A stretch of 64,000 nt of DNA from Rhytidiadelphus loreus (Eukaryota; Streptophyta; Bryopsida; Hypnales; Hylocomiaceae), in the NCBI GenBank assembly GCA_947034895.1, contig OX344763.1, positions 72,373,093-72,437,092 of the forward strand. The letters are read 5' to 3'. The position numbers and the translations under genes are program-made. The notes beneath the pieces were generated by a model, which was given only the letters and a program-made list of their open reading frames with translations, searched no databases and was not told the origin of the DNA. The stretch's first letter is position 1. Each line of letters starts with the position of its first letter. This document shows positions 12,369 through 45,467 of this stretch, piece by piece.

Positions 12369-13526
12369 TTATCCTCGACTCGAAGGTAATAATGAATCAA
12401 CAGAACCGACGGAATTCCGAACTACACAACGAGCATCTCACAAAGGATCTCCAGCACACACCATAGACTGACAAGCAATATTTTCATCGATGCAAAGAGA
12501 ATGTCATGATCACAACAAGGAAATATGAAATAGAAATCCAACAACGAATAAATCCTCACAGTCATATTAATACCAATGAACTCAAGGTACATTGAAATCG
12601 TCCACATTACCTGACAGACTAAAACCATCCCAACAGGCATATCAATACCAATGAACTCAAGGTACATTGAAATTGTCCACATTACCTGACAGACTAAAAC
12701 CATCCCAACAGGCATATCAATACCAATGAACTCAAGGTACATTGACATAGTGAACACATAGCCGTCGAGGACCAGTCCATCTATATTTTACCTTCGAGTT
12801 GAAGGTAAGTCAAGGATCTAGTAAATTAAAATCAGGACAGATACCTTCGACTTGACGAAAAGTCAAGAAACTAGTAAGTGAACATGAGATCACTCACCTA
12901 CCTTCGACTCGAAGATAACTAGATCATGGAATGTACACTACAATTGTTAAACTGTTGGGAACACAAAGTTTCAACAATAATACTAACTGTGTTTGGTAAG
13001 GACTGACAACATTACTACATGTATAGTGTAATTGGGTCATTCCAACATTATTACGAGTGTCGTACGGAAACAAAATTTAGAACTTTGAATTAAATAAAAG
13101 GAACTACACTAATTATCACCCAACAATATGTCAGTCTTAGTGCAATTCAGATTCACTAATTACCCTCGACTCGAGGATAAACTGGTGTGTCCCACAGCAA
13201 GTCGGTTGTTTCTTACACCAATTTTTATTTCAAAAAATATCAGAATACGACAATTTCAAATGTATTTCTGTCAAGAGAATAGAAATGGGGGAAAATGAAC
13301 AAGTAACTTCTGTATCCTGATACAATGACCTCATGATTGCACCATAGAGTGAGCTCAAAAATATTCTACCTTCGACTCGAAGATAAATTACAATATGAAA
13401 TGGAAGGCAAGCGATTCGAAATTTAGACAATACTGAATGATTAATATTTCAAATTAATTCCTTATCTTCGACACGAAGGTAAATGTACGTAGTCCTCAGA
13501 TACCTCTATCTTCGACTCGAAGATAA
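12369..13526. repeat. Cluster of eight 21-bp palindromes upstream of outer transposase gene
   Basis: Copies at 12369-12389, 12788-12808, 12841-12861 (degenerate), 12898-12918, 13160-13180, 13366-13386, 13462-13482 and 13506-13526. Most have arms ending CTTCGA and TCGAAG around a central C or G, and flanks TTA(T/C)C and GATAA. They lie in the presumed 5' untranslated intron of the minus-strand gene. Confidence 0.9.
12569..12745. repeat. 75-bp tandem repeat, about 2.3 copies
   Basis: AATACCAATGAACTCAAGG recurs at 12569, 12644 and 12719 with nearly identical sequence between. The period is 75 bp. It lies between two palindromes in the presumed 5' intron of the transposase gene. Confidence 0.9.
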
Positions 13527-13529
13527 AGT

Positions 13530-14340
13530 ATCCAACTCTACGGAGTCGCTCACAATGATTCCCTAAATTTACGCCTTAATATTCGGAGCGTTGGATTTGG
13601 GTTCTCAGAAAATGACTCTAATTACAATGAAAACGGTTTCATGACCAAGATATCGATTGTGTGAACTTCTAACATGCGGTGACCTATCTGACTAGTTTAA
13701 CATACTCAAATCAAGAAATATGGAATGGAGAGGGGAAACAGAAGGGACACTCACGCAGAGTCCTTCGATATGAAATCAAATGCGGCCTCAGAAACTCGTT
13801 AGCTCTTCGCAAAATCATAAGCACACACTTGGAAATGAATGCAAAACTTCCTACTAAACTAAGAACTATATATTCAAAGCAGGAGCGACATGATACATGT
13901 TTGCACGAATTATTCTCAGCACGGCGGACCTTGTATGTGAGCAACGGAATGGGAACACTGGCAGCAATTGGGAAACAAATTGGAGAAGACTAGGCGGGGA
14001 ACAAATGAGGCGGCAAAACCTGAAAATTCAAATTGAGAGGACCCGTCAGAGAATATGTCAGTCATGAATTCATGGAAAAAGCGATAGTAGATGCCACACT
14101 ATTTTCTACTAGAAATGCGCGACTGCGCAATAGTTCGAGTGAATTAGGCGATGTGAGCTGGAAAGAGAATGTACAAGTCAAACCTAGCTTTTTTTGGAGC
14201 AGATTTTTTTGGGCATTCGCTTAATTCTTGGTGGTAAATGGAATTGCACGTTGGTAGAAAGTTTCTAAATTTGAAGCGATCTTTTTCAGGATTGCCGACA
14301 ATATATTCTTTTGCATAAAATAGGGTTTCCATCAATAAAT
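13530..14340 (-). promoter_or_regulatory. Putative 5' end region of outer transposase gene
   Basis: Palindromes stop at 13526. At about 13995-14040 the motif GAGGCGGCAAAACCTGAAAATTCAAA resembles GAGGCGGGAAACACAAATTCAAA at about 22130-22155 in the inner element, at a comparable place upstream of its transposase gene. I infer a shared 5' untranslated or promoter segment. The plus frame at 13679-13993 has no known domain and no counterpart in the inner element. Low confidence. Confidence 0.3.
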
Positions 14341-14395
14341 GTTGAAAAAGAAAGATTCACTGGGATCCTCTTGTAATTCCTTCCATAGTGAAATA

Positions 14396-14464
14396 GGGTT
14401 TAGGATTTAGGGTTTAGGATTTAGGGTTTGGTGTTTAGGGTTTGGTGTTTGGTGTTAGGGTTTT
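14396..14464. repeat. Telomere-like TTTAGGG interspersed repeat
   Basis: About 65 bp of variants of TTTAGGGTTTAGGATTTAGGG and TTTGGTG. This is the plant telomere heptamer in degenerate form at an internal site. It supports a land-plant origin. Confidence 0.7.
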
Positions 14465-15560
14465 TGTGATTAAATTTCTCCACGTTTTAATTCTAAGACT
14501 TAAAGAAACTTACAAGACTAAATATCTTATTCCGCCTACGCATTCAAAGTGTATTCAATGAACATTGAAAAATAAAAACAATTTTGTTTATTCTCTTCAT
14601 TGAGACCTAAACCAATATCTTATAGAAGGAAAATGTAAAAGTTGAGGTTTGTTCTGAAATGTAGACCACAAAAATTCGCAAAATGAAGCCTTCTTTTATC
14701 TAAAGGTATAATTTTCTTTAAGTTTGTATTTTAAATAAATACAACATCTATAACTAACTTTACAAACTTGTACAATAAATTAATTGTTTTCACTCATGAA
14801 ACTTACTTAAGTGCATGCATGGGATACTTGACAATGATTTATTAAGTGTTTGAACCTCCCTGTCAACTTTGATTATTAATGAAAGATAAAAATAATTAGT
14901 TTAAGCATACTATTGATTATAGTCAGTGGAAGTGACTATGACTATGATTCATACTAGTACCTAATTCAAGGAAAGGTCAATCATGATTTATACATTGCAA
15001 TGTCATAGGACAATAATGGTGCAACTTGATGCCAATTAAACGTCAGACTAATAATGTCTTCCATAGACACAATGAATGATAGACAATCATATTAAAATAG
15101 TGGGAAAACAATTCTTATAAATATTTGTTTTGGAAATGAAAATAGTACAATTATAATTGTAATGCCCCTAAACCCATTGCGTAAGGCAATATTGATAATC
15201 ATTCATTCAAACAATAGTGAGGCTTAAACAACAAAAATCATGCCCAACAATTTTCTGAACCCCAAATCATTAATGCCATGGAAGTTGCGTGAAAAAAAAA
15301 ATAGAAATAAATTAATAGTTACGATTTAGACAATAGTATTATTATAAGGCCTACAAAACAAAAACCATGCCATACAATTTCCTAAACCCCAAATCACTAA
15401 TGCTATGGAATTTGCGTAGGAAACAATCAACGGAAATAAATTAATAGTTACGTACAAGTTGCAAATGATTGTGTAGGAGGTGTAGGATGCATGGCCGTCT
15501 CAAATAAACTTAAAGCACTACTAATTTTTTTTCTTTGAGATTTTGCATACTATGGATTGG
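14465..15560. other. AT-rich palindrome-free middle part of outer element
   Basis: No coding signal. Two related segments (around 15200-15290 and 15345-15445, sharing CATGCC..CAATTT..TGAACCCCAAATCA/CTAAACCCCAAATCAC) show local duplication. Confidence 0.4.
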
Positions 15561-15567
15561 AAAAGAT

Positions 15568-16190
15568 GTTGTGCAAGTTGCAATTATTCCTAAACTAATT
15601 CACATAAATATGCAATTCATGATCACTTTAATGACCTTGTACTTGAAACTAAAAAATAAGGCAAGAATCAGCCCTTGTTAATACGATGTACTTCAATAAC
15701 CATAAAAATATAAAGTCATGAACTTCATTTAAAAAAAAAATGAGAAACATGTAAGTTGTGCAAGTTCCAATTATTCCTAAACTCACGAATTCAAAAAAAT
15801 ATATAATTGGTGGTCACTTTGAATGGCTTACTCCGTGAAATGGAAAATTGGTGCATGAACCTTGCCCTGTACTTTAATGTCGAACAAGTTGTAATCTCAT
15901 GAAATTGACGTAAAGAAAAATTGGAAACACGTTGTGCAAGTTCCAATTATTCGTGAACTCACGAATTCAAAAATATATATAATTGGTGGTCACTTTGAAT
16001 GGCTTACTCCGTGAAATGGAAAATTGGTGCATGAACCTTGCCCTGTACTTTAATGTCGAACAAGTTGTAATCTCATGAAATTGACATAAAGAAAAATTGG
16101 AAACACGTTGTGCAAGTTCCAATTATTCCTAAACTCACGAATTCAAAAAAATATATTATTGGTCGTCCCTTTAAATAACCTTCTCCTCTA
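15568..16190. repeat. About 176-bp tandem satellite, three to four units
   Basis: The segment starting TGGAAAATTGGTGCATGAAC occurs at 15841 and 16017, a 176-bp period. The segment GTGCAAGTTCCAATTATTC..CTCACGAATTCAAAAA occurs near 15758, 15935 and 16112. A more degenerate unit starts near 15568. The array is AT-rich and non-coding, inside the palindrome-free middle of the outer element. Confidence 0.85.
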
Positions 16191-16679
16191 AACTATAAAT
16201 TAGGACTATAATATTGGAAACCATTTACTTAAAATAATGTTCCAAAGTATATAAAGTCATGAAATTCATAGAACTTGCAATAGAGTAGGAGGTGTAGGAT
16301 CCGTGGCCATCCGAATTAAATTCAAAGTAACCACTATCTACTAACTTTTTTGCTAGACGTGTTACATGAGGTGGACCTTCTATAAGGTTTTAGGGGAGAA
16401 ATAAGAATGTCTGTGTTTTTAATCATTTTTAAAAGTTAGGAGTTGAGGTTTATTAGCATGTAGAATTTTGAGTCTAGTTTAGTATGTATAATTAGGACAA
16501 AAATGTATGTATTCATCTTCGAAATCAGGGATAGAAGAATGAATCTTCTACAATTTTTTGCTTCCAATGAATTTTCTTGATTTTTATAACTAGATGTCGT
16601 TACACGGTTTCAAAAAGAGTTTAGGGTTTCTATGGTGGCCAATCTAATGTTGAAAAATTAATATTAAGAACCCCAATCT

Positions 16680-17075
16680 GAATAACTTGTTTACAAACCT
16701 GCATCACTAATAATTCTGCATTTCTGAGTAACTTGGATTTTTAACCTACATTATCTCCAAACTTGTATCATGAACTTGCATCCGAACCTACATTGCGACC
16801 ATCCATTCATAATTTGCATTCCGAACTTCCATATTGAACTTCTATTTTGAACTTGCATTCCAAAGCAACATTTAGAAATAGTATTGAATTTAGAATTTGC
16901 ATTCGTAACTTTGCATCCCTAACCCCTAAATCCGAGCCTGATCCGGAACCTACATTTCGAACTTGCATTGGTGGTTCGGCAACGCACACCTGTGTCCTGA
17001 ATTTAGAACCCGAACAAATGTCCCGAACCTAGAACCGACCCCGAACCTTCGATCCCGAACCACATTTGGCGGCTC
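16680..17075. repeat. Degenerate GAACTTGCATTCCGAACCT minisatellite
   Basis: Short units of 14-20 bp built around (C)GAACTTGCAT, CCGAACCTACATT and CCCGAACC recur through about 390 bp, with GC rising to the right. Frames read through it on both strands are not genes. Confidence 0.6.
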
Positions 17076-17179
17076 GGCGAAGGTTTGGGGGTTCATCACC
17101 CTCCGCGACTCGCGGAAGGTGATCTCCCCGTTGTCCTGCACGTCGTCGCGAGTCCGGATACCTCCCGCCGATTTGCATT

Positions 17180-17331
17180 TTGATCTTCTCGTTTCTCCCC
17201 GCGGTTCCTGATGTCGCTCCGTCGTTGCTAAGCGCATGGTGCTACGGAAGTGCTGTCCTCGCTTGCTGTCCGCGCGTCGAGATTCTGAACTCTTGTCCCT
17301 GCGTGGTGATCCCGAAGTTCTCCCTTGGAAT
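17180..17331 (+). other. Possible 5' untranslated exon of the outer ParB/methylase locus
   Basis: A GC-richer stretch ends in TTG|GTAAGAG, a strong plant donor, at 17332. It lies about 300 bp left of the inner element's insertion point and on the strand of the ParB/methylase gene of the outer element. I infer a first exon, now separated from the rest of the gene by the inner transposon. RNA evidence is lacking and it could be unrelated. Confidence 0.3.
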
Positions 17332-17633
17332 TGGTAAGAGAACACACTGTTTTCTCTTGTATGTGGTGATCTTCTTTGTGCAAGTGTTTCGGGGTTGGGT
17401 TGGGTATGGGGTAAGTGTGTGTGAGTATGGCAAGGTGTCTGATTTTTGTGTTTTTGGCGGTGTTTTTGAGTGGCATTACAGGGAGTTCTACTCGTCGAAG
17501 GCGTAGTTTGTTGAGGATGTAATGGGATTTAGGGTGTGTTGGGTGCAAGTAATCCTGGGAGTTTTCTCTTGAGTGTTCATTTCTATTTTGTGTGCGTCTT
17601 CATTTGCGGTGTTTTGGAGTGTTGTTCTCGTGA

Positions 17634-17899
17634 AAGGCCTTATTCGTTAAAATGAGACAAGTTGCAGTCTCATTTTAATTCATTCCTATATTTAGGTTCA
17701 AGAAATCTTTCATTAAATTGAGATTGTTCATTAAATTGAGACTTAGAAATGTCAAAATATGTATTTGATTATTTTTCAACCATTAAAAAATAATGGTTAA
17801 AATTCGAAATCACATTTGGATTCACAAACTTATTTGTGAAAAGGAGAAAAAAATACTCAAAGACATTATAAAGTGAGACATTTCTTTAAATTGAGACTT
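17634..17899. repeat. Left terminus of inner element: terminal repeat, hairpin and GAGAC repeats
   Basis: After the terminal repeat, TTAAAATGAGAC (17647-17658) and GTCTCATTTTAA (17667-17678) form perfect 12-bp inverted arms around an 8-nt loop. Sub-terminal copies of TTAAATTGAGACTT follow near 17712 (variant ending GATT), 17731-17744 and 17886-17899. The right end has GTCTCAAAAT and GTCTCATTTTAA as direct copies at about 36760-36790. Confidence 0.8.
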
Positions 17900-18192
17900 A
17901 AAAATGTCAAAGAACTAATCTACATATTCGAGGTATGTCCAACTTTGATATGAAACACATGAAAAATAAACAAAATATATCAAAAAATTAGTTAAATATA
18001 AAGTTTGAAGATGCAATAGTATGAAATAAGTTTACTATTAATAGAAATAGGATTTCCTTACTTACATAGCCACACTATCATAATAAAACAAATACATATA
18101 TGATCATTGATCAGTTGCAATGATCATTCTAATTGTAATTGAACTACCAAAACAATAGTCTACTAGTAATAGAACTATGAACTATGAACTAA

Positions 18193-21043
18193 TCAATCTT
18201 CTTCCATAGAGTCATCATTAGTTGCAGTTGTCGTAAAGGCCGCCACTGATGCCTTTATGATATCAATTTGCAAACTTGGAATTTTCACTTTTGGATGTTT
18301 AGTTGTTTCACGAAAACGTGGCTTCCAAGCTGTCATGATACAATCTGTATTTGCCCAATCTGAAGGTATTACGCGATCCTCACGCCACACATTCCCTTCT
18401 TTGGTGTCCCATCCGGCATAGTTCACCATATCAATGTGCCGATCCGAAGTAGGTGTCCAATATTGGATTTTGATCTTATGCATATGCCCCGGATCTGGGC
18501 TGGGAGCCGTAATGGCCCTGGCAAGCCAAAATGGCTTCGGGTCATGATCTGCAGGACGCACCACAACAAAAGAACCTGCGTGCGTATCACGATTAACACG
18601 AAAGGAAGGACGTGGACGATCACGTCTACGTCCAACAAAGGGTGCATCCTCTGCATCTTCTTCACGCAATGTGACATCTCTTTGCATTCGATCTGTCTCG
18701 TCAGGGGCGATCCTCGAAGCTGGCCACAATCCATCAAGTAACACCTCACGCACTTGAAGAGGAGCATCCAAAGCACTTCTGACGCCTTTCCAATAATCTT
18801 GTAGTGAGCCATTCTTCCGCCTAAACTCTCCAGTGTAATCGTCATTTGCCATTTTGTTCCAATGTCCAACATAACCATTCAAGCCCTTCTTTATGTCATC
18901 AAGAGCTTTCATCGGTTGAGGAGCCAAAGGTAGAGGACTACCACTTAGCACTATGGGAAGTCCATCTTCACTCTCAATCCACAACCTAATTCCTTTGCCA
19001 TGCTCTGGCAACCACTTATCGTCTGTACACAAATTCTTATACTCCATCAAAGGCCATCCTGAAGAATCCATGAAAAACTTAAATTGTTGGGACTTCGAAT
19101 GTACTTCAAGATAGTCCCCACGAGAGCCCAAGTAACCCTCCACAAATTTTTTGAAATCAGGAAGCTCCTCAATGAGATGAGGAATCACGGGATGCGTTTC
19201 ACAATCCATAAAGGATTTCATGAGCAAAGGAAGTGTTGGGTAGTTATTTGTCTTCAATCTTGAAGACCATCGACCAAAAAGAGCATCAATGTCTTCGTGA
19301 GTGTGTCCTACAATGAGGAAGTTGATGTACACCTCACGAAAAATGCCTTTATATACAAGCAAAGAGCAAAAGACAAAAACATATCGATTCTTGTTGTCCC
19401 CTGAAGCATTATCCAATTGCAATACTAATACTGGTGGGAGAGGTTGAGCCGGAATCGGTTCTTGTAGAGGTGGAAGGAGGGAGTCCAAGCAATTCTCTGC
19501 TCCAATTAGAAGTGCCTTCGTCAAGGTGGATTGGTCTCTCTCGATAGAAAATAACGTGCGTGATGAATTCTTTGGCGGTCCTTCCAAATCACGCAACAAC
19601 CTTGCAATGGATCCAATGGTATGATTTGAATCAAATGGGTAAATGCCCAAACCGTAGTGTGCATATCGCACATCTCTATGACCATGAGCAATCATACCTG
19701 TAACAGCAACGGGCATTTTCATGAAGGACTCTGTCACTTTGGTCTTGTGAGAAAAGTGTGGAGAAGACGTCTTTGAATGATCCATTTTATCATGAATGAT
19801 GCACAACATCTTCTCTGGGTATGTCTCGGAAAAATACCGATTTCCGTAGTAGTATTCCCTATGGGCCTTCTGCCCGGCAACATGGATATTCAAAAGATTA
19901 GTCCACTTATTTTGTGTCTCCGAACACACACAAGCACTCCTCAATTGCTTGTATGTATCACAAAGGCCACACCTAGCGAAAGTGTCTCCACGAGCCTTTG
20001 CAGCAAATTCTGGGAAAGAAGCACGGCGAATGTTGCTCAAGCCACTAGAAGAAATTGGTTGCAAGTCAAGTGATGCATTACACTCATTGATTTTTGGTAA
20101 TTGCTCATTCCAACGAAATGTAGAAGGTAGAACCATTGATGGGACTTTCTCCCCAGATTCTAATGTTCTTGTCTTGTGTGGCATTTTATCTGCATTAGAC
20201 TCAATAAGTTGTCGAAGTGTGGCGGTAGCTTGAAGAATATGCATGCGGGGCTTCTTTGATCCCACATTTCCATGGACCTCAGATTGCTTTCCAACTCTGG
20301 CCTTTTCTTTATACCTATAGTAGGTAGCTTTTGCAATCCCATGAATGATCCACCACGCTGTGGGACACACTTCCCTACCTTTCAAAGTTATCCACTCCTT
20401 GCCATCAACGTCTTTGTGGATTTGCCTATGCACCTCTAAAAGTGTCTTGTTGCGAGCCTTGAAGTCATAATCTCCATAGAGGTCAGTCCGAATTGCTTGA
20501 ATTTGCTCATGAGGAAAAGGCTGCACACAATTTCTACTGCAACATGTTTTCGTGGAAACTGTTGTGATGGATTCCATAGTGAGGAGAAACTCTCTCTTAG
20601 GAGGCACAACAGGATCAACCTTCTCACGAGTTGTTTCATATGATCGAACCCCTTTACGAACTCTTCTGTTTGAGGCGTTTGCAGCCATGTTGTATATATA
20701 GGTCTGGTCATGGTCATACAAATTTACACCATCGTGGAGAAACACTTGTTTAATGTGCCAAGAACGCAATGACCACATATTTGCAGACGAGAACAACTCT
20801 TCATTCAGACTCTGCAATCTGAATGGCAACTCGATCATCACCAAGAGGCTTCTTATCCATGTCAATGATCAAGTCCGGGTCAACATTTTGACAAACACCC
20901 CTTGCGATGTCCAACCCCTCTTCATTTCTTAGAGTGATAGGCAATGACACCCATTTTGCACGAGGAATTCCTTCGCAGGCCTGAACACCAACTGCAAGTG
21001 TAGGAACTGGATTTACAAACTCATGAGGTCTATGAAAATCCAT
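18193..21043 (-). CDS. DUF7869-type transposase-like protein, inner copy, one frameshift near 20815
   Basis: A minus-strand frame of 890 codons (20865-18193) is preceded in another frame by the true N-terminus (21043-20802). The start MDFHRPHEF at 21043 directly follows a TTTTCAG acceptor, as in the outer copy. One base is missing near 20815, between QIAES and NEELF, relative to the outer copy (QIAESLCEDEVP). Domain order, numbered from 20865: zinc-like CGLCDTYKQLRSAC near residue 298, HDKMDHSK near 360, RNase-H-like strand LQLDNASGDNKNR near 482, GHTHEDIDALFGRWS near 520, and a C-terminal PFWLARAI..IQYWTP..W..DRVIP region near 800. DUF7869 proteins occur as transposon ORFs with an integrase-like core, so the likely role is DNA cleavage and joining at the element ends. 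The single indel may be real or an assembly error. Confidence 0.75.
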
Positions 21044-21073
21044 TCTGAAAATACGAAGACAAATAGTTAGAAT

Positions 21074-21610
21074 TATTGTCGACTCAAGGATGACAAATTT
21101 CAATGCAGAAAGTCAATATACAGGAAAAGTAAGTCCCTCAGTACATGGCAAATGCAAAGTAAGAGAAAATGATACAAATGTTTCAGCATATCGTGTAAAG
21201 GACAGAGGTCAATACTACATCGTCGACTCGATGATAAAGTATACCCACGATTCTAGGGTTTATAGTAGGATTCCAATTTATCATCGAATCAATGATAGTT
21301 TATTATTTCACAATAAACCACACATGTACTGTGATTGCTACCAGTTGATTTCGATAATGATGTTGGATTGTTTAGCAATTTCTTAACAATAGTAATCTCT
21401 TTGACAAGAGGAAAATTATCGTCGACTCGAGGATAATATACTGACTCTCAACCTAGAAGCTATTCGGTAACTTCACTGTTAATTATGATAATATACTTCT
21501 TAAGTTTTTCTAGCAGACGGGGTCTTATCATATCGTCGAGTCGATGATAATTTTTTTTTATTCAGAATCACAATATTGTTGTCAATTTGTTATCCTTGAG
21601 TCGATGATCC
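21074..21610. repeat. Cluster of six 21-bp palindromes upstream of inner transposase gene
   Basis: Copies at 21074-21094 (degenerate), 21217-21237, 21278-21298, 21416-21436, 21530-21550 and 21590-21610. Arms here are mostly CGTCGA or CATCGA with TCGATG, unlike the CTTCGA type of the outer element. They lie just upstream of the transposase start in the presumed 5' untranslated intron. Confidence 0.9.
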
Positions 21611-21619
21611 CGAGAAATG

Positions 21620-23900: not shown

Positions 23901-23902
23901 GT

Positions 23903-26920: not shown

Positions 26921-26929
26921 CGCTACAAC

Positions 26930-28260: not shown

Positions 28261-28296
28261 TTTACCAAACACGACAACAATAACCTGCACGAGAAT

Positions 28297-33602: not shown

Positions 33603-33605
33603 GTC

Positions 33606-35324: not shown

Positions 35325-36239
35325 GTTGAAGGTCTCTGTTTTGTTAAAACAGCGAAAAGGCAGAAGCTCTTGAGGAGTCTCCTTTCCGGTTCCATGAAGT
35401 CGGTGTCCACCAAGTCCGAATCGAAAGGCGGGAGCTGCGATACGGTTCCCCTGTCTAAGCCCTATATGTTGCGTTCAGCCACAGATGCCGCCTCGGCTGC
35501 CATAGACTATTCCAAGGGGAACGTCGAGGACGGGGTCGTAGACAGCCCCCCCAGTCGCGGACCGGGCAGGACTCCCATCTGCTCCCCTTCGCCGTTGAAG
35601 TGAGCATCCTCGAGTCGTGGGCCGTCGCTGTTGCCAGGTTTGCGGACGGACAGAGGGACGAGCCGCAAACTACAACTTCCTCTCGAAGACACACTCGGTC
35701 ATCCTCGAGGCGAGGATGTCGTCTCCGATCCGTCCGCACTGCCTATTGTCCTCAAGGTTGGAGTGATGTCATTGGATGGGGTTGAGGACGAGATGACGAT
35801 TCCAAGTCCCAGGCCGTGTGCTGCGAGACGCTTACCTCGACTCAACGATAACTGGACTTCCTCGTCTAAGTTGACGATCCCCAGACAGTTACCGTCCGCC
35901 GACAGTCTTTTCCGTCATCGAAATCTTAGAGAACTTCGACGGTCTCTGGGCTCTACATCAACTAGTACTGGGTTTCCGTACGGAAACAATGCGAAAGTAT
36001 CGTTGCCAACCGTGCCTCCGCGAGGATCAAAGTCTCATTCAGCTTCGGAAGTTCCTCATGCCACATACAATTCGAAAAGGAAAGCCAATGGATCTCATAG
36101 TCTAGGGCTATGTGATGCTGTGGATAGTACAAGCAGGCCGCAATATCATTCTCGACTCGAGGATATCTTGAGAGGCCGCACAATGCTGAAGGCAAAAGAG
36201 ATTGAGAAGAGCAATTGTACATCCAAGAGCAATACTTAG
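35325..36239 (+). pseudogene. Ser/Pro/Arg-rich disordered protein, inner copy, one TGA
   Basis: An exon starts after TATTGCAG at 35324, as in the outer copy, and is open to 36239 except for TGA at 35601-35603. The outer copy has CGC (Arg) there. The conserved block is DSPPSRGPGRTP(I/V)CSPSPLK (35541-35600); later blocks are PSADSLFR and YHSRLEDILRG. The composition is typical of intrinsically disordered or chromatin-associated linkers. No known domain. It may be a final exon of the ParB/methylase locus or a separate small gene; the stop of exon 5 and TGTAAATA-type signals between them favour an alternative 3' product. Confidence 0.5.
35604..36166. repeat. Four palindromes inside the Ser/Pro-rich coding exon (inner)
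   Basis: At 35604-35624 (half decayed), 35699-35719 (CATCCTCGAGGCGAGGATG), 35832-35851 and 36146-36166 (CTCGACTCGAG). They encode recurring peptides of the type PRGED, PRLND and SRLED. Three have palindromic counterparts at equivalent sites of the outer copy (44841, 45070, 45383). Confidence 0.8.
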
Positions 36240-36803
36240 GATAGCGTGTCTAATTTTTGAAGCCTCCTGCTTCTATGATTTTTTTCTATAATTACCGTGG
36301 TAAATACACATTGAAAAGTGCTTATAAAAGTGCAAGACTTCATGTAAGACAACCATCCGATTCTAAGCCTTGCTTACTATAAATAGAATGTAAATTTTGG
36401 ACATAAAAAAATTTTAGAAAAAAAATAATATGCTTCTTCAATTGTACTTCGATTATACAAAATTGTATATCTTGATCATTGGTATCGTAGACTTCAATGC
36501 ATTTTGGGAGCAAAAGTCACATACTTTGTATTTTCTAAACACCAAGTGAATTGAATATATTGAACTTGCCACTACAAGTTACTTCTCTTTTACTAGAGCA
36601 TATCGTTTGAATGTATGACTTCCCGTGTGATTGTGCACATCCACACCTTTGGTTTAAGACATTTAAGTCAAAGTTCATAATTCTTGTCGACGATCGGCTC
36701 AATTTTTCATAGGGTTCAACAACTCTATGCTCTACACAATAGCGCTACTCGTTTTCAAAGTCTCAAAATGACCATTTCGTCTCATTTTAACGAATAAGGC
36801 CTT
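36240..36803. other. 3' flank and right terminus of inner element
   Basis: AT-rich 3' region of the Ser/Pro-rich ORF, ending in the right terminal repeat. The last 50 bp (from about 36754) align with the right end of the outer element (about 46008-46057), including (A)AAGTCTCAAAATGACCA and CGAATAAGGCCTT. Confidence 0.7.
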
Positions 36804-37500
36804 GTGAGCATAATTCTCGACAGACTACCACAGACATCAGGAAGCTCGCGGTCTGTGAATATCGGAAGCTGCAAACCTCTGGATTCTCGGCGGGTTTATT
36901 TTTGCGGCCGTTCAGTTCTTCATCTAGATTCTTCCTCAGTTTGAGGTTCTCGCAAGTCAGGACGCCTCAACTTGGACGAGGTTCGCTGAAGAATTTCCAG
37001 TGTTGGTGGAGGTAGACGGCGTTCTCGTGCTACTGCAGGAAGTTCAGGTTTGTTTTTTTGCTTTCTCTTTTCCTTACCTCGTTTCCACATGTGCTTACTA
37101 TGCAAAGCCGAAGCACTTACTGTTCATATTTTCAGTACATTGTAGTTACATTCTAGTTTAGGGATTAGGGTACAGTGAGACAAGGGAGGTAGTTGTTTGT
37201 GGAGGTGTTGTGAAAATCAGCAACTCAGTTTACTTATGCAGTCTGTCCATTCCTGTTTTCAGCTATGTTCATGTCTCTGGCTTAGGATTTACAAGTGTAT
37301 TGTTGGTGTATTTCACGCATTGCTAATTCATGTTTAAGATTGAGCTGAATGTCTGCAACCAAATAGACCTATAGGAATCCAATTGCACTATACATACATT
37401 TAGGTTCAGGGTATGCATTATTGTAGGTTGAGGGTTTAAGAGCTAGGGTTTACGCAGGAGACATTGAAGTTTTAAGTGAAGATCACATAATTGAAAACAC
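36804..37500 (+). promoter_or_regulatory. Outer element resumes: 5' region of outer ParB/methylase locus
   Basis: Starts with the putative GTGA duplication. A GC-richer stretch (36840-37050) ends in GAAGTTCAG|GTTTG, a possible donor near 37047. Telomere-like TTAGGGTA occurs near 37165. No coding frame with a known domain. It is probably an untranslated first exon and intron of the gene starting at 38160. Confidence 0.3.
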
Positions 37501-37521
37501 AATGCTCGAAATGAATGTAAA

Positions 37522-38115
37522 TTATCCTCGACTCGAAGGTAAATTAGAGTTGAGGATAATCATTTCATGGTGTATGATATGCAGCCAATTCAGCAGTCCA
37601 GTCTGCAAATCGATTACCCTCGAGTCGAAGATAAAAGACGGGCAATATAAACCCCAGCAACAGACTGAGAATATCACAATAATTTTAACATTATCATACT
37701 CACCATCGGGTTTACGGCCTTAAATAGAAGTAGAAATGCTCTTCTAAAATAGAAAATATTGAAAGCGACAATTTTTAACATATAATATCATGCAATCAAG
37801 TTACCTTCGAGACGAAGATAACATGATTAAAACGGAAAATAACCACAATTAGTCGGTCTATAAATTCAAGTACTAAATTTTAATTAATGGGGAATGACAA
37901 TTAAAATGCTAAACACCATAAATATATTTTGAGGTCATGAAATTCGTGCACACAAATGTAATAAACACGACATTAAAACATTACAATGATTCTGCAATTT
38001 ATCTTCGCCTCGAAGATAATTCTGAAGTATCTAGTTACATACCGTATTGCCGCCGCCATTAGTAAGTGCTCCGAACATTCTATGCACAACTAAATTACCC
38101 TCGACTCGAAGATAA
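37522..38115. repeat. Cluster of five palindromes upstream of outer ParB/methylase gene
   Basis: Copies at 37522-37542, 37614-37634, 37801-37821, 37999-38019 and 38095-38115. Arms are mainly (C/T)TCGA with CGAAGATAA, like the cluster at 12.4-13.5 kb of the same element and unlike the inner element. Confidence 0.9.
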
Positions 38116-39591
38116 TTAACAGTGGCCTCCTAATTCTACAGACTTGATAACGTAGCAATATGGCGGAAGGAGCGGATTATAACTACTCCAGCACGCTGGC
38201 ATTCATGGAACCATTTATAAATCCGCTTGGAGACGAGCCCTTCATTGAAGAAATGCCAGAAACATTTGGAGACCTTTGGCAGTTTAAGGAGCATGTAACC
38301 GCGTGGTCATTTGGCTTGAACCAGTTTCAAGACTTCGTCCATCTACGGTACCGTGTCCAAAATCAGTCGGATTTCTTCCCATGGCATCTTCAAGAGAAGG
38401 TCACGAACATTGACTCCGTTCGCGAGAACTTCGTCGTCATCGTGTTGTAGGAGGCACGTGAAGATGGCACAGACGGGGAGCACATTCACTCAATCGTAAT
38501 GGATGTGAACGCAGGGAGGTTGAAGTTTGACATGGAGGAGTTGGAGTCATTTCTCCAAATTGCAAAGTTAGACTACCTCATAAACACATTTAGAACTGCC
38601 AAATACATACCATGGATTGACGGAACCGCTAAAGTAAACTGCCGCCGGCTTCTCAACATTTGGAAATCCATGGACAAGCATGCTCGACAATATGTGAAGT
38701 CATGACCGCCTATAGGTAACCAAATGAAAAAGAAGCAAAGGCCATCTCTTGAGGGGCAGCCCAGTGGGTCAACTCCCCTACTGTCGAGCAGCACAGCCAC
38801 CGGTCAGGGACAAGTTCGGTCAGAGCCGCGGAAACGTGCAATGACTCAGTCCGTTGACGGAACGCAGGTTGGAGGCTCCAAATCTAAGCGACCGAGGGCA
38901 ACTGGAGCTGCCACAGTAACTGCTGCTGGAAGCTCCGAATCAGCTCTGACGAATGTTGCACAGCCAGAGGAACCCATGAGTCCCAAGGATGACGCTGATA
39001 AGTTTGGCCACATACATCGAGACTTCTGGGCTATGCACAGAGGTTGCTACGTTCTAGGTCAAGATCCGAAAGTCGTCGATATAAAGCAGTGCATCCCAGC
39101 GAGAGACGACTATGTCATCCGGGATATGGAGGACCGGATTTTAGAATCCGTGAAGTGCAACCTCATTGCGTTGGGCCACATTCGGGAGCGTCAACGATTG
39201 TGTCTGACTCCAGTGGACAAACCCAACAATCTCCTGAAGGAGCCACCCAAGAAATGGGAGGAGATAAAGGATGGGAAGTTCATGATCATCAATGGTCAGC
39301 ATAGTGTGCAAGCTTCTAAGGATTTGCAGAAAGAAAAGTGTTGTGAGCAACGTCGAGTTGAACTCAAGACTTGGGAAGTGTACATTGTGTGGACCCTTGA
39401 TTCATCTAAAATTGGTGAATATATCGGAGTTCTACAATTCGACGAATCACCTAGACCACGCCCAACCAACATGGGGTAGCCAAATCATAAGCTCCCGCAA
39501 CGTCTGGATCAATTGCCTCCGACCGACTCTTCTTGCCGATGAGCCGGTGAAGCGAAGAAATGCGTCCGTTCTCAGTGAAGGGCAATGGAAG

Positions 39592-39774
39592 GTATGTTCT
39601 CCTGCCCATTTACCCTCGACTCGTAGGTAAATTTCTTAGTTCTACGATCACTTCTATTGATTCATTTGTTTACTAGTTCGGCTTTCTATGAAATTGCGAA
39701 TGAGTTGCATTATCTTTGAGTCGAAGATAATTGCAGAAGTACTCTAAGCTCACAGACTGCCTTTTTTGCTGTAG
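39592..39774 (+). other. Intron 1 of outer locus with two palindromes
   Basis: GT at 39592 and AG at 39773-39774. Palindromes at 39609-39629 and 39710-39730. Confidence 0.8.
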
Positions 39775-41100
39775 AGTTTCACTAATGCAGTGGTTAAGCG
39801 ATTCCAAAATATTAATCCCGAGAAGGAAGGCAAGAATATAAAACATGCCGGAGATCTCAAGAGCGAGATCAAGATTATCACCCTTCGTGATGATATTTGG
39901 AGGCTCTGGAAGGAGTTCCTCACCAAGTACCCCGAGGGCTATCTTGTTGAGCCTGTCACCCGGCAGCTCTTTCGGGACTTGGATGACTTCAGTCGGAAGT
40001 CATTCTTCTTGAAGAGAGAGTTCTTTAAGCATTTGGGTCACTTCACGGACTGTGATCTCGAGACTTTTGCAAAGCACCTCCTCAATCTAACCGAAGATCG
40101 AAGGCTGAAGCACCCGAAGGTATCCATCGACAAGACAAAATATCTTGTCCCGGATAACCAAACAGCGCAAGATTGGGTAGAGCGAAGAAGAAAGAAGAAA
40201 ATCATCCATGAGGAGTTCATGACAATAAAACCTAGTCTGAAACTACGTGATGAAAACAACGACACAGACTTGACTGTCTGGAGGTCGTGGAAGAAGAGGC
40301 ACAACTTCTCGTCGTCAACGTGGGACTTCCTCCTATCCTATCCAAAACCGTCATACTTCAGTAAACGGCTTACAAACGACGCTAAGTTGAAGCGGGCCAA
40401 GGATCTTGGCGAAAAGTTCGCAAACGAGGCAACGATGTTTGAGAGGTTCATGAAGTCCAAATATCGCCTCAAAAAACAAACTGGCGGATTTGAGTTCAGA
40501 GGCTTGGACGCAAAGTCCAGAGTGCTAGTCACCACTGGAATGTACAATTACATTAGTCGGCAGCTTCACCTCGCCGTACTGGACGTCAAATACATGAGCA
40601 GGCCCACCATCCCTGATAACACGTCGAATTTGGATCCGTTCCTAGAGTACGTGGCTGGTAGTCTGGAGCCCCAGGCGACAGAGGCAAGTGTCTGGCTATG
40701 GATTCTTGGCAGAGAAGAGGACTTCAACGCCGCATACAAGTTTGCGACGGTCGATATGCCGGACTTCGACATCGTGAAGTCCGTTTATATTGCATCCCGT
40801 GCGGAGCGGTTGGACAGTGTGTCCAATCGGTTTAAAACCGCTCCTGACGTGCGTATGCTCTTCCTCTTTAAGAGAGGTGATAGGCATGCCAACCAAGTGC
40901 GCGACAGAGTGAAGGCGGAATACCGTCCTGCCGAAATCCTATATTATCAGGAAAGTAGGTACAACAACGAGGCAAAGTGGAGGATATATGCCTACGAACT
41001 CCGAATGGAGTTTTACATCGAGATGCTCCAGTGCTTTGCAATTCCTGAGGAAAATGTCCTGGGTATTTTTGCTGGAGCAAAGATTGCGTTGGCGGCGAAG

Positions 41101-41401
41101 GTGTGTTTATCTTCGACTCGAAGATAATGAGTGACCTTCTCATGCTAATCTCATTTAATTATTCTCATCTATAGGCAATCCTTTATCTTCGTCTCGAGCG
41201 TAATAGCTCTCATGAATCCTACACCCTAAACTTCGTGTGTTGCTGTCTACTGGCCTTGACTCTCCTGAGTTTCCCGATAACTCATATGAAAATGCTAATT
41301 ACGGTATTGCAGATCTCTTGTGATTTTGTAGGTCCGTAGTTTATCTTCGTCTCGAAGATAAATTCTGCAATCTAACATTTGCGTGTTTATATGGTTTTCA
41401 G
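41101..41401 (+). other. Intron 2 of outer locus with three palindromes
   Basis: GT at 41101 and AG at 41400-41401. Palindromes at 41107-41127 (perfect: CTTCGA-C-TCGAAG), 41183-41203 and 41341-41361. Palindromes make up about a fifth of the intron. Confidence 0.85.
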
Positions 41402-42525
41402 ATGTTCGGGTCATACTATTATGGCCTGGTCGATACGGACATGGGTACGGTGCATCGTGCTATGACCAAATCAGCTGAGTACTTGGATTTGAATGATTTC
41501 CTGCATTCAAATTCACTGTACTCGGTCAAGTACTTGAGGCCTCTGTACATCGAAGCGCCTGTACTTACATCTGTTTCTCCGCCCTCGGTAGAGGATCTTC
41601 AGTCTCCCATTACCAGTAGTGATGAGACTGATAGTGCAGCTGAGGAGGGGCGGAATGGAAGTGGTGACGAGGGGGATAAGTCAGGGAGTGGGGATGGCGG
41701 CGACTCACCTAGTTCAGAACCAGCTGACTTATCTAGAGATTCGACACCATCGGTGGATGCTAGTTACGCGGGAAGAAATGACGAGTCACCCCCTCAAGAA
41801 CATAGGGTCTCTGACGTTGGCATCGGAGGCCTAGACGAGTATGGCACCAACGCCGATGCCATGGTGCAATGGGAAGCTCAGCCTCGATTGGATGGTGAGT
41901 TGCCCAAAACGTGTGGTCGAAGATATCGAGACGGACACGAAGTTCCAAGAGCAGCAACGCTTGGAGCGCTTGCGGGAGAGTCGCGAGTTGGAGAAGAAGT
42001 CCGCTTCGAAGACCTCTGGAGGCGCCGAGGGCCATAGTCGTCAGGGTCGCGAGGGTACAAGAAAGCTGAAGTCGAAGGTGGAGCGAGTCGTCGAAAATCT
42101 GAGCGACATTGACTCAGACACGCTTCCGCACTCGTCGGATTTCGATGACAGTGACAGCGACGACGGCAACATTCCCGACATCCCCCCGACTCCCATCCCT
42201 GGAAAGATTCAGATTGGGTGGTGGCAGGCGATGGTCGAGCGGAAAGCCAGGAAGGCAGCGAAGAGGATAGCAATCCAGGTAGAACTGGACAAAAAGGACA
42301 AACAGATCGCAAACGTTCTCTTCGCCAGCAAGGAATCGAAGGCCAAGAGCCAGGCCACAACGGAACGGCTGGAGGTTCTGGAAAAACAAATGCACGACTT
42401 CTTTGCATTTAAGGTATCCCAGACAGCTCCAGTTCCGAGCCTGACACCCTCAGAGTCTGCCCGTATCCCCCCTCCCTCCACACCGGGTCTGTCGCAGCAG
42501 GCCCATGAACTGGTCTCCGGGATCA

Positions 42526-42667
42526 TGGATCCTCGACACGAGGGTACTCCAACCAAGAATCCTCCACCTACACAGGCAGGTGATGGACTCGATCCTGGGA
42601 GTCGTCCTGTTTCCTCTCCGACATTAGCTGGTCAAGTTCCTGGGATTTATCCTCGAGTCGAGGATAA
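42526..42667. repeat. Two palindromes inside coding exon 3 (outer)
   Basis: 42526-42546 (ATCCTCGACACGAGGGTA; peptide DPRHEG) and 42647-42667, perfect over the full 21 bp (CCTCGA-G-TCGAGG between TTAT and ATAA; peptide YPRVED). Confidence 0.9.
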
Positions 42668-42755
42668 ATCTGAAGTGGGACCTTCCTTGCCCCTAGATGA
42701 GAGGGTTGGTGATGCTGCTGTGGATGCTCCCTAGCGCACACCGTCCAAGCAGGAG

Positions 42756-42917
42756 ATGGATGACACGAATCCTACTAGTATTGCCGACCAGGAACAAGTC
42801 GACTACGGCGATTACGACGACTTCCTGCAGGACAATACTATCGACGGGGGAGACGAAATTCCTTCTGATGCTCCATCACAGGATGGAGGAGATCAGCAGC
42901 CTAACGGCTCGGTTGAG
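42756..42917 (+). CDS. Acidic downstream segment after the shared TAG (outer)
   Basis: In the frame of exon 3, 21 bases after the TAG at 42732, an ATG opens an acidic stretch (QVDYGDYDDFLQ) that runs to the donor GGTTGAG|GTATG at 42918. It matches 33606-33770 of the inner element in content, phase and position. It can be joined in phase to exon 4 at 43334. Confidence 0.45.
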
Positions 42918-43333
42918 GTATGCTCTCCTGATTTGATTTTACTTTCTTAACCTGTGTACATTGTCAATGCATAGAGGTCACCTCTTCTTTGTCGATCCCG
43001 TAGTCTCCGCATTCTGATTTGATTATCCTCGACTCGAGGGTAAAATTAAGAGATGTAGGTGAGTCGCTCTTCTTGTCACTTATAGTCTATGTATTTTGCT
43101 TGACAGGATGGTCCTCTTTGATTGTTGGGCGTTGATATCTTGACAAAGTCGTCTTCGCAATGCCCCGTGTAGACTAGTGTAGCATAGAAATCACTTGTGA
43201 TGTTTTCCGGCCTCAGATGTGGGTGGCATCGTCGAAATGTATCTCTCTAATATTTGTAAATAAATATATATGCGATTCAATTTCCATACGCGTCGATCTA
43301 ATTGTATTTCCCTGACAATGTTATGTTGCTCAG
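42918..43333 (+). promoter_or_regulatory. Intron 3 of outer locus: one palindrome and possible poly(A) signals
   Basis: A palindrome lies at 43023-43043. TGTAGCATAG and TTGTAAATAAATATA recur at the same relative places as in the inner copy. Confidence 0.4.
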
Positions 43334-44324
43334 CCAAACATTCCTAGAAGTTTGCACCGCCCGATGGCAATGAAAGCTTTTCCTAAGGGGAGCAAGCAGT
43401 CGATTAGTGGATTTCAGTGCTCCTTTCCATTGTCTGGCTCACCTGATTCTGCATTCAAACAGGTAACTCCATTTCTATGTTGTCTTGATTTAATCAGGTA
43501 GGATCTGAGGGAACCGGAGAGCTCGTGCCGCGGAATGTCTCGCCGATAGTGCCGGACCGGAGGAAGTGGCTGAATATAGTGTTCGACCTAAACGGAATCT
43601 TGTGCCATTGCGAGCCCAGATCGTACTCTAAGAGATTTAAGCCGTATAGTGTCGAACAAAATAATCTCTGCCACTTGAACCCCACCCTTGTAGGACCCAA
43701 GGCGGTATTCGCCAGGCAAAATCTCCGCGACTTCCTGCATGAGGTCTCGGAAATCACGGCGAGGGTCGTTGTCTGGTCCTCCATGAAGCACTCCACTACG
43801 GAGATGGTGGTAGAGCACCTATTCAAGGGGATCAGGGCCCCATTCGAAGTTCTGGGACAAGACCATTGTAGGAAGATTGAGATCTTCCGGGGGACTTTCC
43901 TCCACTTCGATAAGAAGCCGGTCTTCCTAAGGTCCTGGCCAAGCAAGTGTTCACGATGGTGGGTGGAGATGAGGCCTTTACCACAAACAACACCCTTCTC
44001 ATCGACGACTCTCCCAAAAAGAGTGTCTGCAATGAGAAGGGGAATGCCATATTCCTTCGCTCCTGGCGTCATAGTCATTGGTTGGACAACTTCCTCATGG
44101 GGGAACTTCTGCCGTGGCTCGGGCGTTTGGAAATGGAATGTGAACCCAGTCGTCTGCGGGAGTATGTGCAGGTCAACCGGATAGGGGAAAGGCCGTTGGC
44201 CTATGTATCCGAGTATGTCTAAGGCATTGTCTCGGCGATGAGAGATTCCGCTCAGAATCTCGGCTCGCGTTTCAAACTTCCTGGGTTCGATGTGGTTATA
44301 GAGCCGGATGGACATAGGCCTTAG
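43334..44324 (+). pseudogene. FCP1-like HAD-family domain, outer copy (exons 4-5), frameshifted
   Basis: Exon 4 is 43334-43462 (129 bp, 43 codons). Exon 5 starts at 43498 after an intact AATCAG acceptor. HAD motif I is FDLNGIL; the motif IV-like block is LLIDDSPKKS. Relative to the inner copy one base is missing near 43929 (TTCCTAAGGTCCTG), shifting the frame between PVFL and VLAKQVF. A TAA at 44220 interrupts the C-terminus, which continues as GSRFKLPGFDVVIEP and ends at TAG 44322, level with the inner copy's stop. Confidence 0.6.
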
Positions 44325-44543
44325 ACTAGTCTTCTGCCCCGCCATCCGACAGTGCACATTTTGTAATTTGTGATTGTATATTCTCTACATTTGTATAATT
44401 TGTAAATAACTATGTATCCGGTTCGGAATTTACATTAAAAGTTGCGCGTTTCTGTCGTCTTGGATTTGGGTTCGTGTCATTTGGATTGGGACTTTTGGGT
44501 GGTGAATGTATAGGAAACTTCTGTAATTTCTATCTTCTTGCAG

Positions 44544-45467
44544 GTGGGAGCTCAGAATGTGGGAGACTCGCCCAAGAGGTTGAGGATGACAAGGAGCCTC
44601 CTCTCTGGATCGGAGAAGTCGCTCTCGATGTCGTTCGGATCGGAATCGGAATCCAAATCTCATGGAGGGACGTTCATGCCGTCAGTGTTCTCCGGCCTTT
44701 TCATGATGCGCACGGCCGAGGACGCTGCTTCTACGGCCATTGACTTCTCCAAGGGGGACATGGAGGACGGCGCCGTGGACAGCCCTCCAAGCCGAGGTCC
44801 GGGGAGGACCCCCGTTTGTTCTCCGTCCCCGTTGAAGCGCGCATCCTCGAATCGAGGATGCTCGTTCTCCCCAACACCACAGAATGAGGCGGGGACCAGT
44901 CGAAAACTGCATCTTCCCGTTCGTGGGGGCAGTCAAGATCCTCCACTGCAGGATACTATTTTCACGGAGTTCGACCGCCCAAGTGTCCCCGTCGCAACTA
45001 CGAAGACGATGTCATTCCCGGGAAGGTATACAAGGAGTGACGAAGTGGGTCCTCCAAGGCCGGCTCGTTTGCCTCGCCTCGAGGGTAATCGACCAAGCCC
45101 TTCACTATCTAGAGGAGCTAGGCAGTCGCCCTCAGCCGACTCCCTATTCCGTCAAAGGATTATACGAGACCAAAGGCGATCTCTGGACTCCAAATCAACT
45201 GGATCTGGACTCCCGTATATAAGCAATGTGAAGTCAATGCTCCCAAGGCCGCGTCCTCATGGGTCAAAATCTTTGTCCACTTCAGAGGTTCCACGAAGCA
45301 CCCTCAAGTTGAAGCGGAAGGAGAGTGACTCTCAAAGTGTGGGCTTCTGCGGAGCGGTGGATGGTGGAAGTGGGCCCCATTATCACTCTCGGCGCGAGGA
45401 TATATTTAGAGGGTTGGCAAAGCTGAAAGCGTTAGAGGCAATTAAGAGCAATTGTACAGGCAAATAG
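44544..45467 (+). CDS. Ser/Pro/Arg-rich disordered protein, outer copy, open
   Basis: An exon begins after CTTCTTGCAG and is open for 308 codons to TAG at 45465. It shares DSPPSRGPGRTPVCSPSPLK, PSADSLFRQR, SEVPRST, HYHSRREDIFRG and a C-terminal KSNCTGK with the inner copy. No ATG is needed if it is a downstream exon; the first internal ATGs are at about 44586 and 44628. No domain is recognised; it is highly basic and Ser-rich, suggesting a disordered nucleic-acid- or chromatin-contacting protein. This is the only part of the outer locus besides exon 2 that has stayed open. Confidence 0.5.
   Translation: MGAQNVGDSPKRLRMTRSLLSGSEKSLSMSFGSESESKSHGGTFMPSVFSGLFMMRTAEDAASTAIDFSKGDMEDGAVDSPPSRGPGRTPVCSPSPLKRASSNRGCSFSPTPQNEAGTSRKLHLPVRGGSQDPPLQDTIFTEFDRPSVPVATTKTMSFPGRYTRSDEVGPPRPARLPRLEGNRPSPSLSRGARQSPSADSLFRQRIIRDQRRSLDSKSTGSGLPYISNVKSMLPRPRPHGSKSLSTSEVPRSTLKLKRKESDSQSVGFCGAVDGGSGPHYHSRREDIFRGLAKLKALEAIKSNCTGK
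44841..45403. repeat. Three palindromes inside the Ser/Pro-rich coding exon (outer)
   Basis: 44841-44861 (GCATCCTCGA-A-TCGAGGATGC, perfect), 45070-45088 (CCTCGCCTCGAGG) and 45383-45403 (CTCTCGGCGCGAGGATAT). Each has a homologous site in the inner copy. Confidence 0.85.

Follow-up and report, generated by a model that had tools for sequence, protein, structure and literature searches.

A family-specific 21-bp palindrome as a candidate recognition site of an accessory protein in nested DUF7869 transposons of the moss Rhytidiadelphus loreus

We analysed a 64,000-nucleotide stretch of the genome of the moss Rhytidiadelphus loreus (contig OX344763.1, positions 72,373,093 to 72,437,092; hereafter the window), which contains two nested DNA transposons, each encoding a DUF7869 transposase (T) and an accessory protein (M). 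Both carry many copies of a 21-bp odd-length quasi-palindrome. These sites occupy particular compartments of the elements, are linked to such elements wherever the genome was sampled, have been gained in tandem, are spelled in a way that tracks the lineage of M, and are also carried by gene-less elements. We infer that they are bound by a protein, that M rather than T is the binder and that binding counteracts silencing. The reading that we favour, and consider moderately probable, is that the palindromes are family-specific recognition sites of a transposon-encoded protein, most likely M, with an anti-silencing role.

Palindromic sites in the window

A pattern scan of the window allowing up to 3 mismatches gave 29 matches, against 0.02 expected. 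A matrix trained on these matches in three rounds of refinement, with a threshold of 11.5 bits (at most 0.5 sites per simulated window), detected 45 sites, the whole set lying within 12369-45403; at 12 bits the count was again 45, against 0.4 in 15 first-order Markov simulations. The matrix was trained on the window itself, so that the weakest sites (14-17 bits) are the least certain. No matrix site was found at 1-12.3 kb or 45.4-64 kb. The initial annotation of this stretch, which had described about 45 dispersed palindromes confined to the nested elements, thus agrees with the scan in both number and confinement. The regularity that it ascribed to them holds in part: 8 or 9 arm pairs are formed in 28 of the 45 sites, and perfect arms (10 of 10 pairs) in four.

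The family accounts for 15 of the 19 generic 21-bp odd palindromes of the window (9 of 10 arm pairs, low complexity excluded), and the 25 commonest 10-mers in the site-bearing parts are fragments of it. CpG steps are retained in 82 of 90 half-sites, in line with selection or low methylation. A search against Rfam gave nothing at gathering scores. A single exact match in a viral collection, on one contig, was judged to be due to chance.

The two nested transposons

Element limits were taken from a BLAST comparison of the window with itself and from inspection of the ends. The features are as follows, those without a strand being listed as unstranded.

8902..46058, unstranded: outer element (DUF7869 transposon), inverted ends AAGG[GC]CTTATTTGTTAATTTG, split by the inner element
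17633..36803, unstranded: inner element, nested within the outer; ends AAGGCCTTATTCGTTAAAATGAGAC; 4-bp target duplication GTGA
8936..9165, unstranded: three TTAAATTGAGAC copies with at most 1 mismatch, outer element, left end, starting at 8936, 8981 and 9154
17647, 17667, 17713, 17731, 17886, 36779 and 46033, unstranded: further TTAAATTGAGAC copies

The end sequence AAGG[GC]CTTATT.. is common to both elements, and in both T lies on the minus strand and M on the plus strand, inside the located ends. The Pfam matches of the two transposases to DUF7869 have E values of 2e-44 and 7e-43. The features of a DUF7869 transposon, namely a DUF7869 protein, inverted ends and a 4-bp target duplication, are all present; the duplication is GTGA for the inner element, and AATA and ATTT for two gene-less elements described below. 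The outer element is flanked by ATTA and TTAG, a clean 4-bp duplication being no longer present. TTAAATTGAGAC, a TGAGAC repeat with 10 copies in all at up to one mismatch, is an end motif distinct from the palindromes. Stops or frame changes occur in outer T, outer M and inner M.

Placement of the sites

The genes (T1 and M1 of the outer element, T2 and M2 of the inner) and the non-coding palindrome clusters (21 bp per site, start positions given) are listed below.

9437..12300, minus: T1, outer transposase (DUF7869), frame change near 11.0 kb; no palindromes
12369..13526, unstranded: 8 palindromes upstream of T1, at 12369, 12788, 12841, 12898, 13160, 13366, 13462 and 13506
18196..21000, minus: T2, inner transposase (DUF7869), 891-amino-acid open frame at 18196-20868 plus N-terminal part, the limit 21000 set by us; no palindromes
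21073..21610, unstranded: 6 palindromes upstream of T2, at 21073, 21217, 21278, 21416, 21530 and 21590
28297..29080, unstranded: 6 palindromes upstream of M2, at 28297, 28404, 28536, 28701, 28876 and 29060
29128..30549, plus: M2 exon A, weak ParB/sulfiredoxin-like fold match; no palindromes
30561..30732, unstranded: 2 palindromes in M2 intron A/B, at 30561 and 30712
30795..32114, plus: M2 exon B, weak methyltransferase-like fold match, motif [DNS]PP[YFWH] not found; no palindromes
32143..32259, unstranded: 2 palindromes in M2 intron B/C, at 32143 and 32239
32298..33771, plus: M2 exon C, of low complexity and containing in-frame stops; 1 palindrome, at 33515
34301..35094, plus: M2 NIF/FCP1-like exon; no palindromes
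35326..36239, plus: M2 last exon; palindromes at 35699, 35831 and 36146
37522..38115, unstranded: 5 palindromes upstream of M1, at 37522, 37614, 37801, 37999 and 38095
38161..39591, plus: M1 exon A, decayed, with stops; no palindromes
39610..39730, unstranded: 2 palindromes in M1 intron A/B, at 39610 and 39710
39775..41101, plus: M1 exon B; no palindromes
41107..41361, unstranded: 3 palindromes in M1 intron B/C, at 41107, 41183 and 41341
41402..42918, plus: M1 exon C, frame change near 41.9 kb; palindromes at 41878, 42527 and 42647
43023..43043, unstranded: 1 palindrome in the M1 intron between exon C and the NIF exon
43501..44324, plus: M1 NIF/FCP1-like exon; no palindromes
44545..45467, plus: M1 last exon; palindromes at 44841, 45068 and 45383

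Exon and region limits were set by us, the 5' regions being delimited by the site clusters. On this basis, 34 of the 45 sites fall either 5' of T and M or within introns A/B and B/C, compartments that together span 4,518 bp. One lies in a later intron, and 10 lie in exon C and the last exon, both weakly conserved. The conserved exons (both transposases, exons A, B and NIF; 12,787 bp) contain none, for which P = 6e-9 assuming even placement over the element, and sites are likewise absent from the spacers and from the terminal 0.5-0.6 kb of the elements (2,253 bp of terminal DNA). The absence from transposase coding regions and middle spacers, as well as the occurrence in exons, had been noted in the initial annotation. 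Its further statement that all internal introns of M contain sites is correct for introns A/B and B/C of both copies and fails for the NIF/last-exon introns of both copies and the C/NIF intron of the inner one, where no sites were found. Most of the 10 exonic sites share one reading frame, xPRxxED-like by eye, and may by nature be a peptide repeat.

The non-coding flanks of the outer and inner elements are only 0.37-0.57 identical, yet the sites are kept; the alignment of the two elements is itself pulled toward the palindromes, which leaves the homology of the apparently homologous non-coding sites unproven.

The spacers and the surroundings of the elements hold other repeats. A tandem repeat of about 176 bp occupies 15568-16176 of the outer-element spacer, and a related inverted array (68-78%) lies at the right edge of the window (63528-63999); it is satellite-like. 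The inner-element spacer holds a 177-bp tandem repeat of 4.7 copies (23901-24741), and the outer-element spacer holds about 10 copies of TAGGGTT at 14394-14463, which we take to be, by rotation, the plant-type telomere unit. A repeat with many GGTACC palindromes occurs, in direct and inverted copies, directly past the right-hand limit of the outer element (46249-46838) and again at 56673-56764, and a run of open frames at 54316-58405 resembles another transposase by eye, with no convincing Pfam match.

Distribution in the genome

The assembly (407,041,205 bases in 489 contigs) was scanned with up to 2 mismatches, using the reversed pattern as control. The pattern itself has 6,231 matches and the control 10. 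For the sample, 10-kb stretches were taken at each exact match listed on contig C1 between 0.44 and 36.74 Mb, giving 20 consecutive stretches, some of which abut and hence are parts of one element. T or M is present in 16 of them by tblastn (one, L014, has part of exon A only). L011 has sites and no gene and adjoins L012, which carries M; the other three (L013, L019, L029) contain neither T nor M and have short gene-less elements instead. Six control stretches at round-number positions contain no sites, no T and no M; the rarity of sites outside elements is judged on these and on the window flanks. The initial annotation had named a genome-wide scan beforehand as the refuting test, and the link to the elements withstood it. 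When variable positions are ignored, 216 sites are found in the 200 kb, against 4 in shuffled sequence. The end sequence (up to 3 mismatches) occurs in 10 of the 20 stretches, with both ends in two.

The placement seen in the window recurs in these stretches. In all 10 loci with exon B, both adjoining introns carry sites: one or two lie 69-212 bp before the exon, corresponding to intron A/B of the window, and the first site past the exon lies about 5-30 bp from its end, in intron B/C. Across the 20 stretches there are no sites in the T, A, B or NIF exons and one in the last exon, exon C being unscored.

The gene-less element in L019 (4768-5145, 378 bp) has ends of the same type, an AATA duplication, TGAGAC repeats and three palindromes; that in L029 (4733-4989, about 257 bp) has such ends, an ATTT duplication, TGAGAC repeats and two palindromes. 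L013 contains a similar remnant (82%) with two palindromes. With the L019 element as query, 55 matches were obtained, two of which are 28-bp scraps, the other 53 being 91-100% identical. By our own count, with 40 of 116 candidates scored, relatives occur in at least 40 places, and their high identity suggests a recent spread. A splicing signal was considered and rejected, because sites are found outside introns as well, namely 5' of genes, within exons and in elements that have no genes.

Tandem arrays of sites occur at several loci, with units of 37, 40, 44, 73 or 122 bp. In the arrays of L010 and L016 the 21-bp sites are more alike than the spacers between them; in L011 the spacers are equally alike.

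Spelling of the sites follows the accessory gene

Half-sites of the outer element mostly read TTA[CT]C[CT]TCGA and those of the inner element TTATC[CAG]TCGA. T stands at position 6 in 27 of 50 outer and 0 of 40 inner half-sites, and C at position 4 in 20 of 50 and 0 of 40, respectively (p 0.0002 for the spelling contrast, 5,000 permutations). The same contrast is seen elsewhere in the genome. In M1-like elements (exons A/B 87-93%; two elements in four stretches, of which two are T-only and abut), position 4 is C in 29 of 92 half-sites, and position 6 is T in 57 of 92 and A or G in 2 of 92. In M2-like elements (exon B 61-62%; two elements), C at position 4 and T at position 6 are both absent (0 of 30 each), and position 6 is A or G in 18 of 30. 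The sites of one element are statistically non-independent. L023 was excluded from this contrast because its assignment as M2-like came from its sites alone, which would be circular. The spelling that follows the accessory protein fits the suggestion, made in the initial annotation, of binding sites for an element-encoded protein.

In a third family (L012, L015, L016, L018, L022, L026), 118 of 216 half-sites carry G or C at position 10. The centre of its sites often reads TCGG-N-CCGA, and among the 69 distinct sites positions 10 and 12 pair in 18, compared with 23.9 after shuffling.

A second palindrome type predicted from protein tails

Relatives of exon B in databases are frequently single-exon open reading frames (ORFs) that read on into the next intron. 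After LARVEL- and FSSSRAK-like tails had been noticed by eye, we devised a post hoc search, with shuffles as control, in which all 21-bp odd palindromes with a TCGANTCGA core were enumerated and translated in three frames, and the resulting peptides were sought in the ORFs. The read-through tails gave 19 peptide windows in 17 of 85 sequences (shuffle mean 0.40, largest 3), the heads three in 2 of 72 (shuffle 0.05), and the domain cores two in 120 (shuffle 7.84). Earlier, narrower peptide patterns had given 12 matches in 11 of the 85 tails, two in one of the 72 heads and none in the 120 cores. The N-terminal extensions of T homologs contained one palindrome peptide in 21 ORFs, too few for use.

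Two arm types are found in the tails: type A, TTATCNTCGA, is that of the window, and type B is TTTAGCTCGA. A quickly built tree of 90 exon-B cores, in which 11 rows (among them the window copies) are of type A and 7 of type B, requires one change of type; the B rows all fall within one side of a split (44 rows) and the A rows within the other (46 rows), with a Shimodaira-Hasegawa-like approximate likelihood ratio (SH-aLRT) support of 99. The types were assigned by us: P0155 (DRRVDD) deviates from type A at an outer base, P0134 and P0161 determine the arms partially, P0185 and the P0163 head are of neither type and were excluded, and P0231 (type A) was not long enough to be placed in the tree.

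The type-B word deduced from protein tails, TTTAGCTCGANTCGAGCTAAA, has 680 matches in the moss genome and none in the control, a search that is not a fully independent prediction because some of the database ORFs may belong to this moss or to a closely related one. Two 3-kb stretches, L036 and L037, have five type-B sites apiece (up to 4 mismatches), no type-A sites and an exon A alongside. Exon A of L037 matches Ceratodon M at 28.6% over 420 amino acids (E 5e-50), against 24.4% over 435 (4e-37) for inner M; for L036 the values are 24.6% over 232 (2e-12) and 25.3% over 150 (1e-6). To judge by these two stretches, type-B palindromes appear to adjoin an accessory gene that is nearer to Ceratodon M than to inner M.

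The accessory protein

All eight full-length relatives of M that were found are from Ceratodon purpureus (1,291-1,463 amino acids), six having a precomputed FCP1/NIF domain; the named relatives come from Ceratodon and Physcomitrium. In the protein database, relatives of T and M occur on equal-sized contigs in five cases (46150, 50733, 348180, 460842 and 493283 bases), and these five cases suggest that T and M are linked elsewhere as well. Between the inner and outer elements M is 23-56% identical, depending on the part, and T 65-72%.

Pfam gave no match to a ParB domain in M. The top ranks of a Foldseek search with exon A are KorB and sulfiredoxin (E 0.1-0.3), obtained with a low-confidence model (mean predicted local distance difference test score, pLDDT, 38.5). 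For exon B, also a low-confidence model (mean pLDDT 48.0), acetyltransferases make up most of the first rows of the primary search, where MTA1-type methyltransferase complexes take ranks 3, 12, 17 and 20; methyltransferases lead only in a second look. The two models were computed from alignments of 9 and 10 rows. A PDB sequence search with 44 exon-B rows gave just two arginine methyltransferases (E 0.7-0.85), spanning the S-adenosylmethionine-motif region. A search for exon-B relatives in viral contigs gave 43 pattern matches, none of which was confirmed.

Phosphatases of the FCP1/NIF type are expected to have a DxDG motif. Both FCP1/NIF-like exons (34301-35094, 43501-44324) read DLNG at this place, and phosphatase activity is therefore doubtful.

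A model for the palindromes and its rivals

We hypothesize that M, a protein with ParB-like, methyltransferase-like (lacking the usual catalytic motif) and FCP1-like parts, would bind the palindrome as a symmetric dimer, contacting the TCGANTCGA core and the outer arms. Bound M would label the promoters and introns of the element as self, and DNA marked in this way could escape silencing by the host, whereby expression of T and M would be sustained and the ends would remain accessible to the transposase. Gene-less copies with sites would benefit in trans. As a wider generalization, each moss DUF7869 family may spell the 21-bp TCGANTCGA palindrome in its own way and encode a matching ParB-like pseudo-methyltransferase that reads this spelling and shields the element from silencing, a proposal that we regard as slightly more doubtful than probable.

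Several observations weigh against these proposals. Both M1 and M2 of the window contain stops. The ParB and methyltransferase assignments come from low-confidence models (pLDDT 38.5 and 48.0) and weak matches, with acetyltransferases first for exon B. The genome sample consists of exact matches on one contig, looser members of the 6,231 falling outside it, and the spelling contrast outside the window is drawn from two M1-like and two M2-like elements. T co-diverges with the sites because the same elements encode it, and the occurrence of palindromes in gene-less copies would also suit sites that take a direct part in transposition. In the third family, positions 6 and 16 are paired in 49 sites against 32.4 expected, which independent half-sites do not predict; co-variation of these positions in several sets may reflect two site subtypes.

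The main rival, which we consider rather unlikely, is that T binds the palindromes, as TnpA of En/Spm binds its repeats, for assembly or regulation of transposition. The gene-less elements of 378 bp and about 257 bp retain three and two palindromes, relatives of one of them are dispersed at 91-100% identity, and the regions upstream of T are site-dense, which speaks for this rival. However, the 2,253 bp of terminal DNA in the full elements of the window carry the TGAGAC repeat instead of palindromes, and the spelling changes where M changes most, T being better conserved.

It is improbable, in our estimation, that M is an active adenine or N4-cytosine methyltransferase marking its own element at the palindromes. 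Such activity would suit the methyltransferase-like fold matches of exon B; the catalytic motif [DNS]PP[YFWH] was found in none of 128 relatives, some of them partial.

Two further explanations are both very improbable. The palindromes could act as RNA hairpins, for instance in splicing or export of element transcripts, the initial annotation having raised an RNA stem-loop as an option. Many sites do lie in introns and 5' regions, and the arms pair by construction, with position 6 co-varying with position 16. However, arm co-variation does not reach significance in the inner element (p 0.36), is weak in the outer one (p 0.013), is chiefly confined to one position, and in the two families pooled (p 0.0004) is partly a family effect. 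Among non-standard pairs in the transcript sense, A.C is at least as common as G.U (26 vs 21 in the window; 45 vs 35 and 18 vs 14 in two other families), and gene-less elements carry sites too; all of this speaks against the hairpin. Alternatively, the palindromes could be a neutral tandem or dispersed repeat hitch-hiking on the element, as the tandem arrays and the L011 spacers, as similar as the palindromes themselves, might suggest; this is contradicted by the survival of sites among diverged flanks, by equivalent intron positions in 10 of 10 loci, and by the L010 and L016 arrays, in which the 21 bp are more alike than the spacers.

If recognition of the palindromes by M is correct, the moss elements would represent an independent invention of sequence-specific anti-silencing, with short gene-less elements living off it. 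Co-evolution of protein and site would be directly testable, because the sites, their variants, the likely reader, thousands of sites and gene-less beneficiaries share one moss genome.

Comparison with known systems

TnpA has been linked to demethylation, and its sites cluster at the ends of En/Spm. Like TnpA, the proposed moss protein would be encoded by an element with many short sites for it; unlike in En/Spm, the ends of the full elements in the window are free of palindromes. A close form of the TnpA analogy drawn in the initial annotation is not supported for the large elements, where sites avoid the ends and a separate TGAGAC repeat is found there. The authors who described the Lanisha DNA transposons are reportedly also those of the Ceratodon genome. 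Lanisha transposons are EnSpm-like (Maumus, McDaniel, Carey 2020, as cited in PMC12730594), and, likened by description only, they probably belong to the same superfamily as the moss DUF7869 elements. According to the same citing paper, CACTA/EnSpm elements have 5'-CAC..GTG-3' ends and a 3-bp duplication (PMC12730594). The moss elements differ in both respects, with AAGGCC ends and duplications of 4 bp.

To our knowledge, transposon self-recognition and escape from silencing are described at sequence level for few systems. One involves VANC, which has a DUF1985 domain, on expression clears its target elements of DNA methylation, and is encoded by VANDAL elements with a transposase of the Mutator kind; the moss element encodes unrelated proteins, its transposase being of the DUF7869 type. 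VANC of Arabidopsis VANDAL21 and VANDAL6 forms an anti-silencing system (Hosaka et al. 2017, PMC5735166; Sasaki et al. 2023, PMC10398659). The likeness extends to a short motif at high density in its own element, located 5' of the transposase gene and within accessory-gene introns; to motif variants that differ by subfamily, together with tandem-repeat gain; to an accessory protein less conserved than the transposase; and to presence of the motif on other elements (AT9TSD1 in Arabidopsis, gene-less copies in the moss). The VANC motif is a 9-bp word arrayed in one orientation, in contrast to the 21-bp palindrome of the moss. VANC is the closest working model, and these layout features are shared; Pfam scans found no DUF1985 in the M exons, in 44 exon-B rows or in three full-length Ceratodon relatives (E limits 1, 0.1, 0.1 and 10).

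The protein itself is best compared with that of Sola1-1_Ec32 from Ectocarpus, an algal transposon whose ParB and methyltransferase protein has been proposed to bind and modify its own element (PMC12477816). The putative ParB-like and methyltransferase-like domains of moss M (weak fold matches) would be common to both systems, and in both the accessory gene lies opposite to the transposase in a giant DNA transposon. The transposase superfamilies differ, and moss M has an extra FCP1-like domain, the catalytic motif not having been found in it. In the main text of the article as available, no target sites of the Sola1-1_Ec32 protein are mentioned, and 'palindrom' has no match. The moss palindromes could be the target sites that a ParB-methyltransferase protein would need. 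Should this be so, they would be, within the literature examined, the first cis sites for accessory proteins of this kind, and the idea of ParB-methyltransferase proteins acting on the very transposons that encode them would gain concrete candidate targets.

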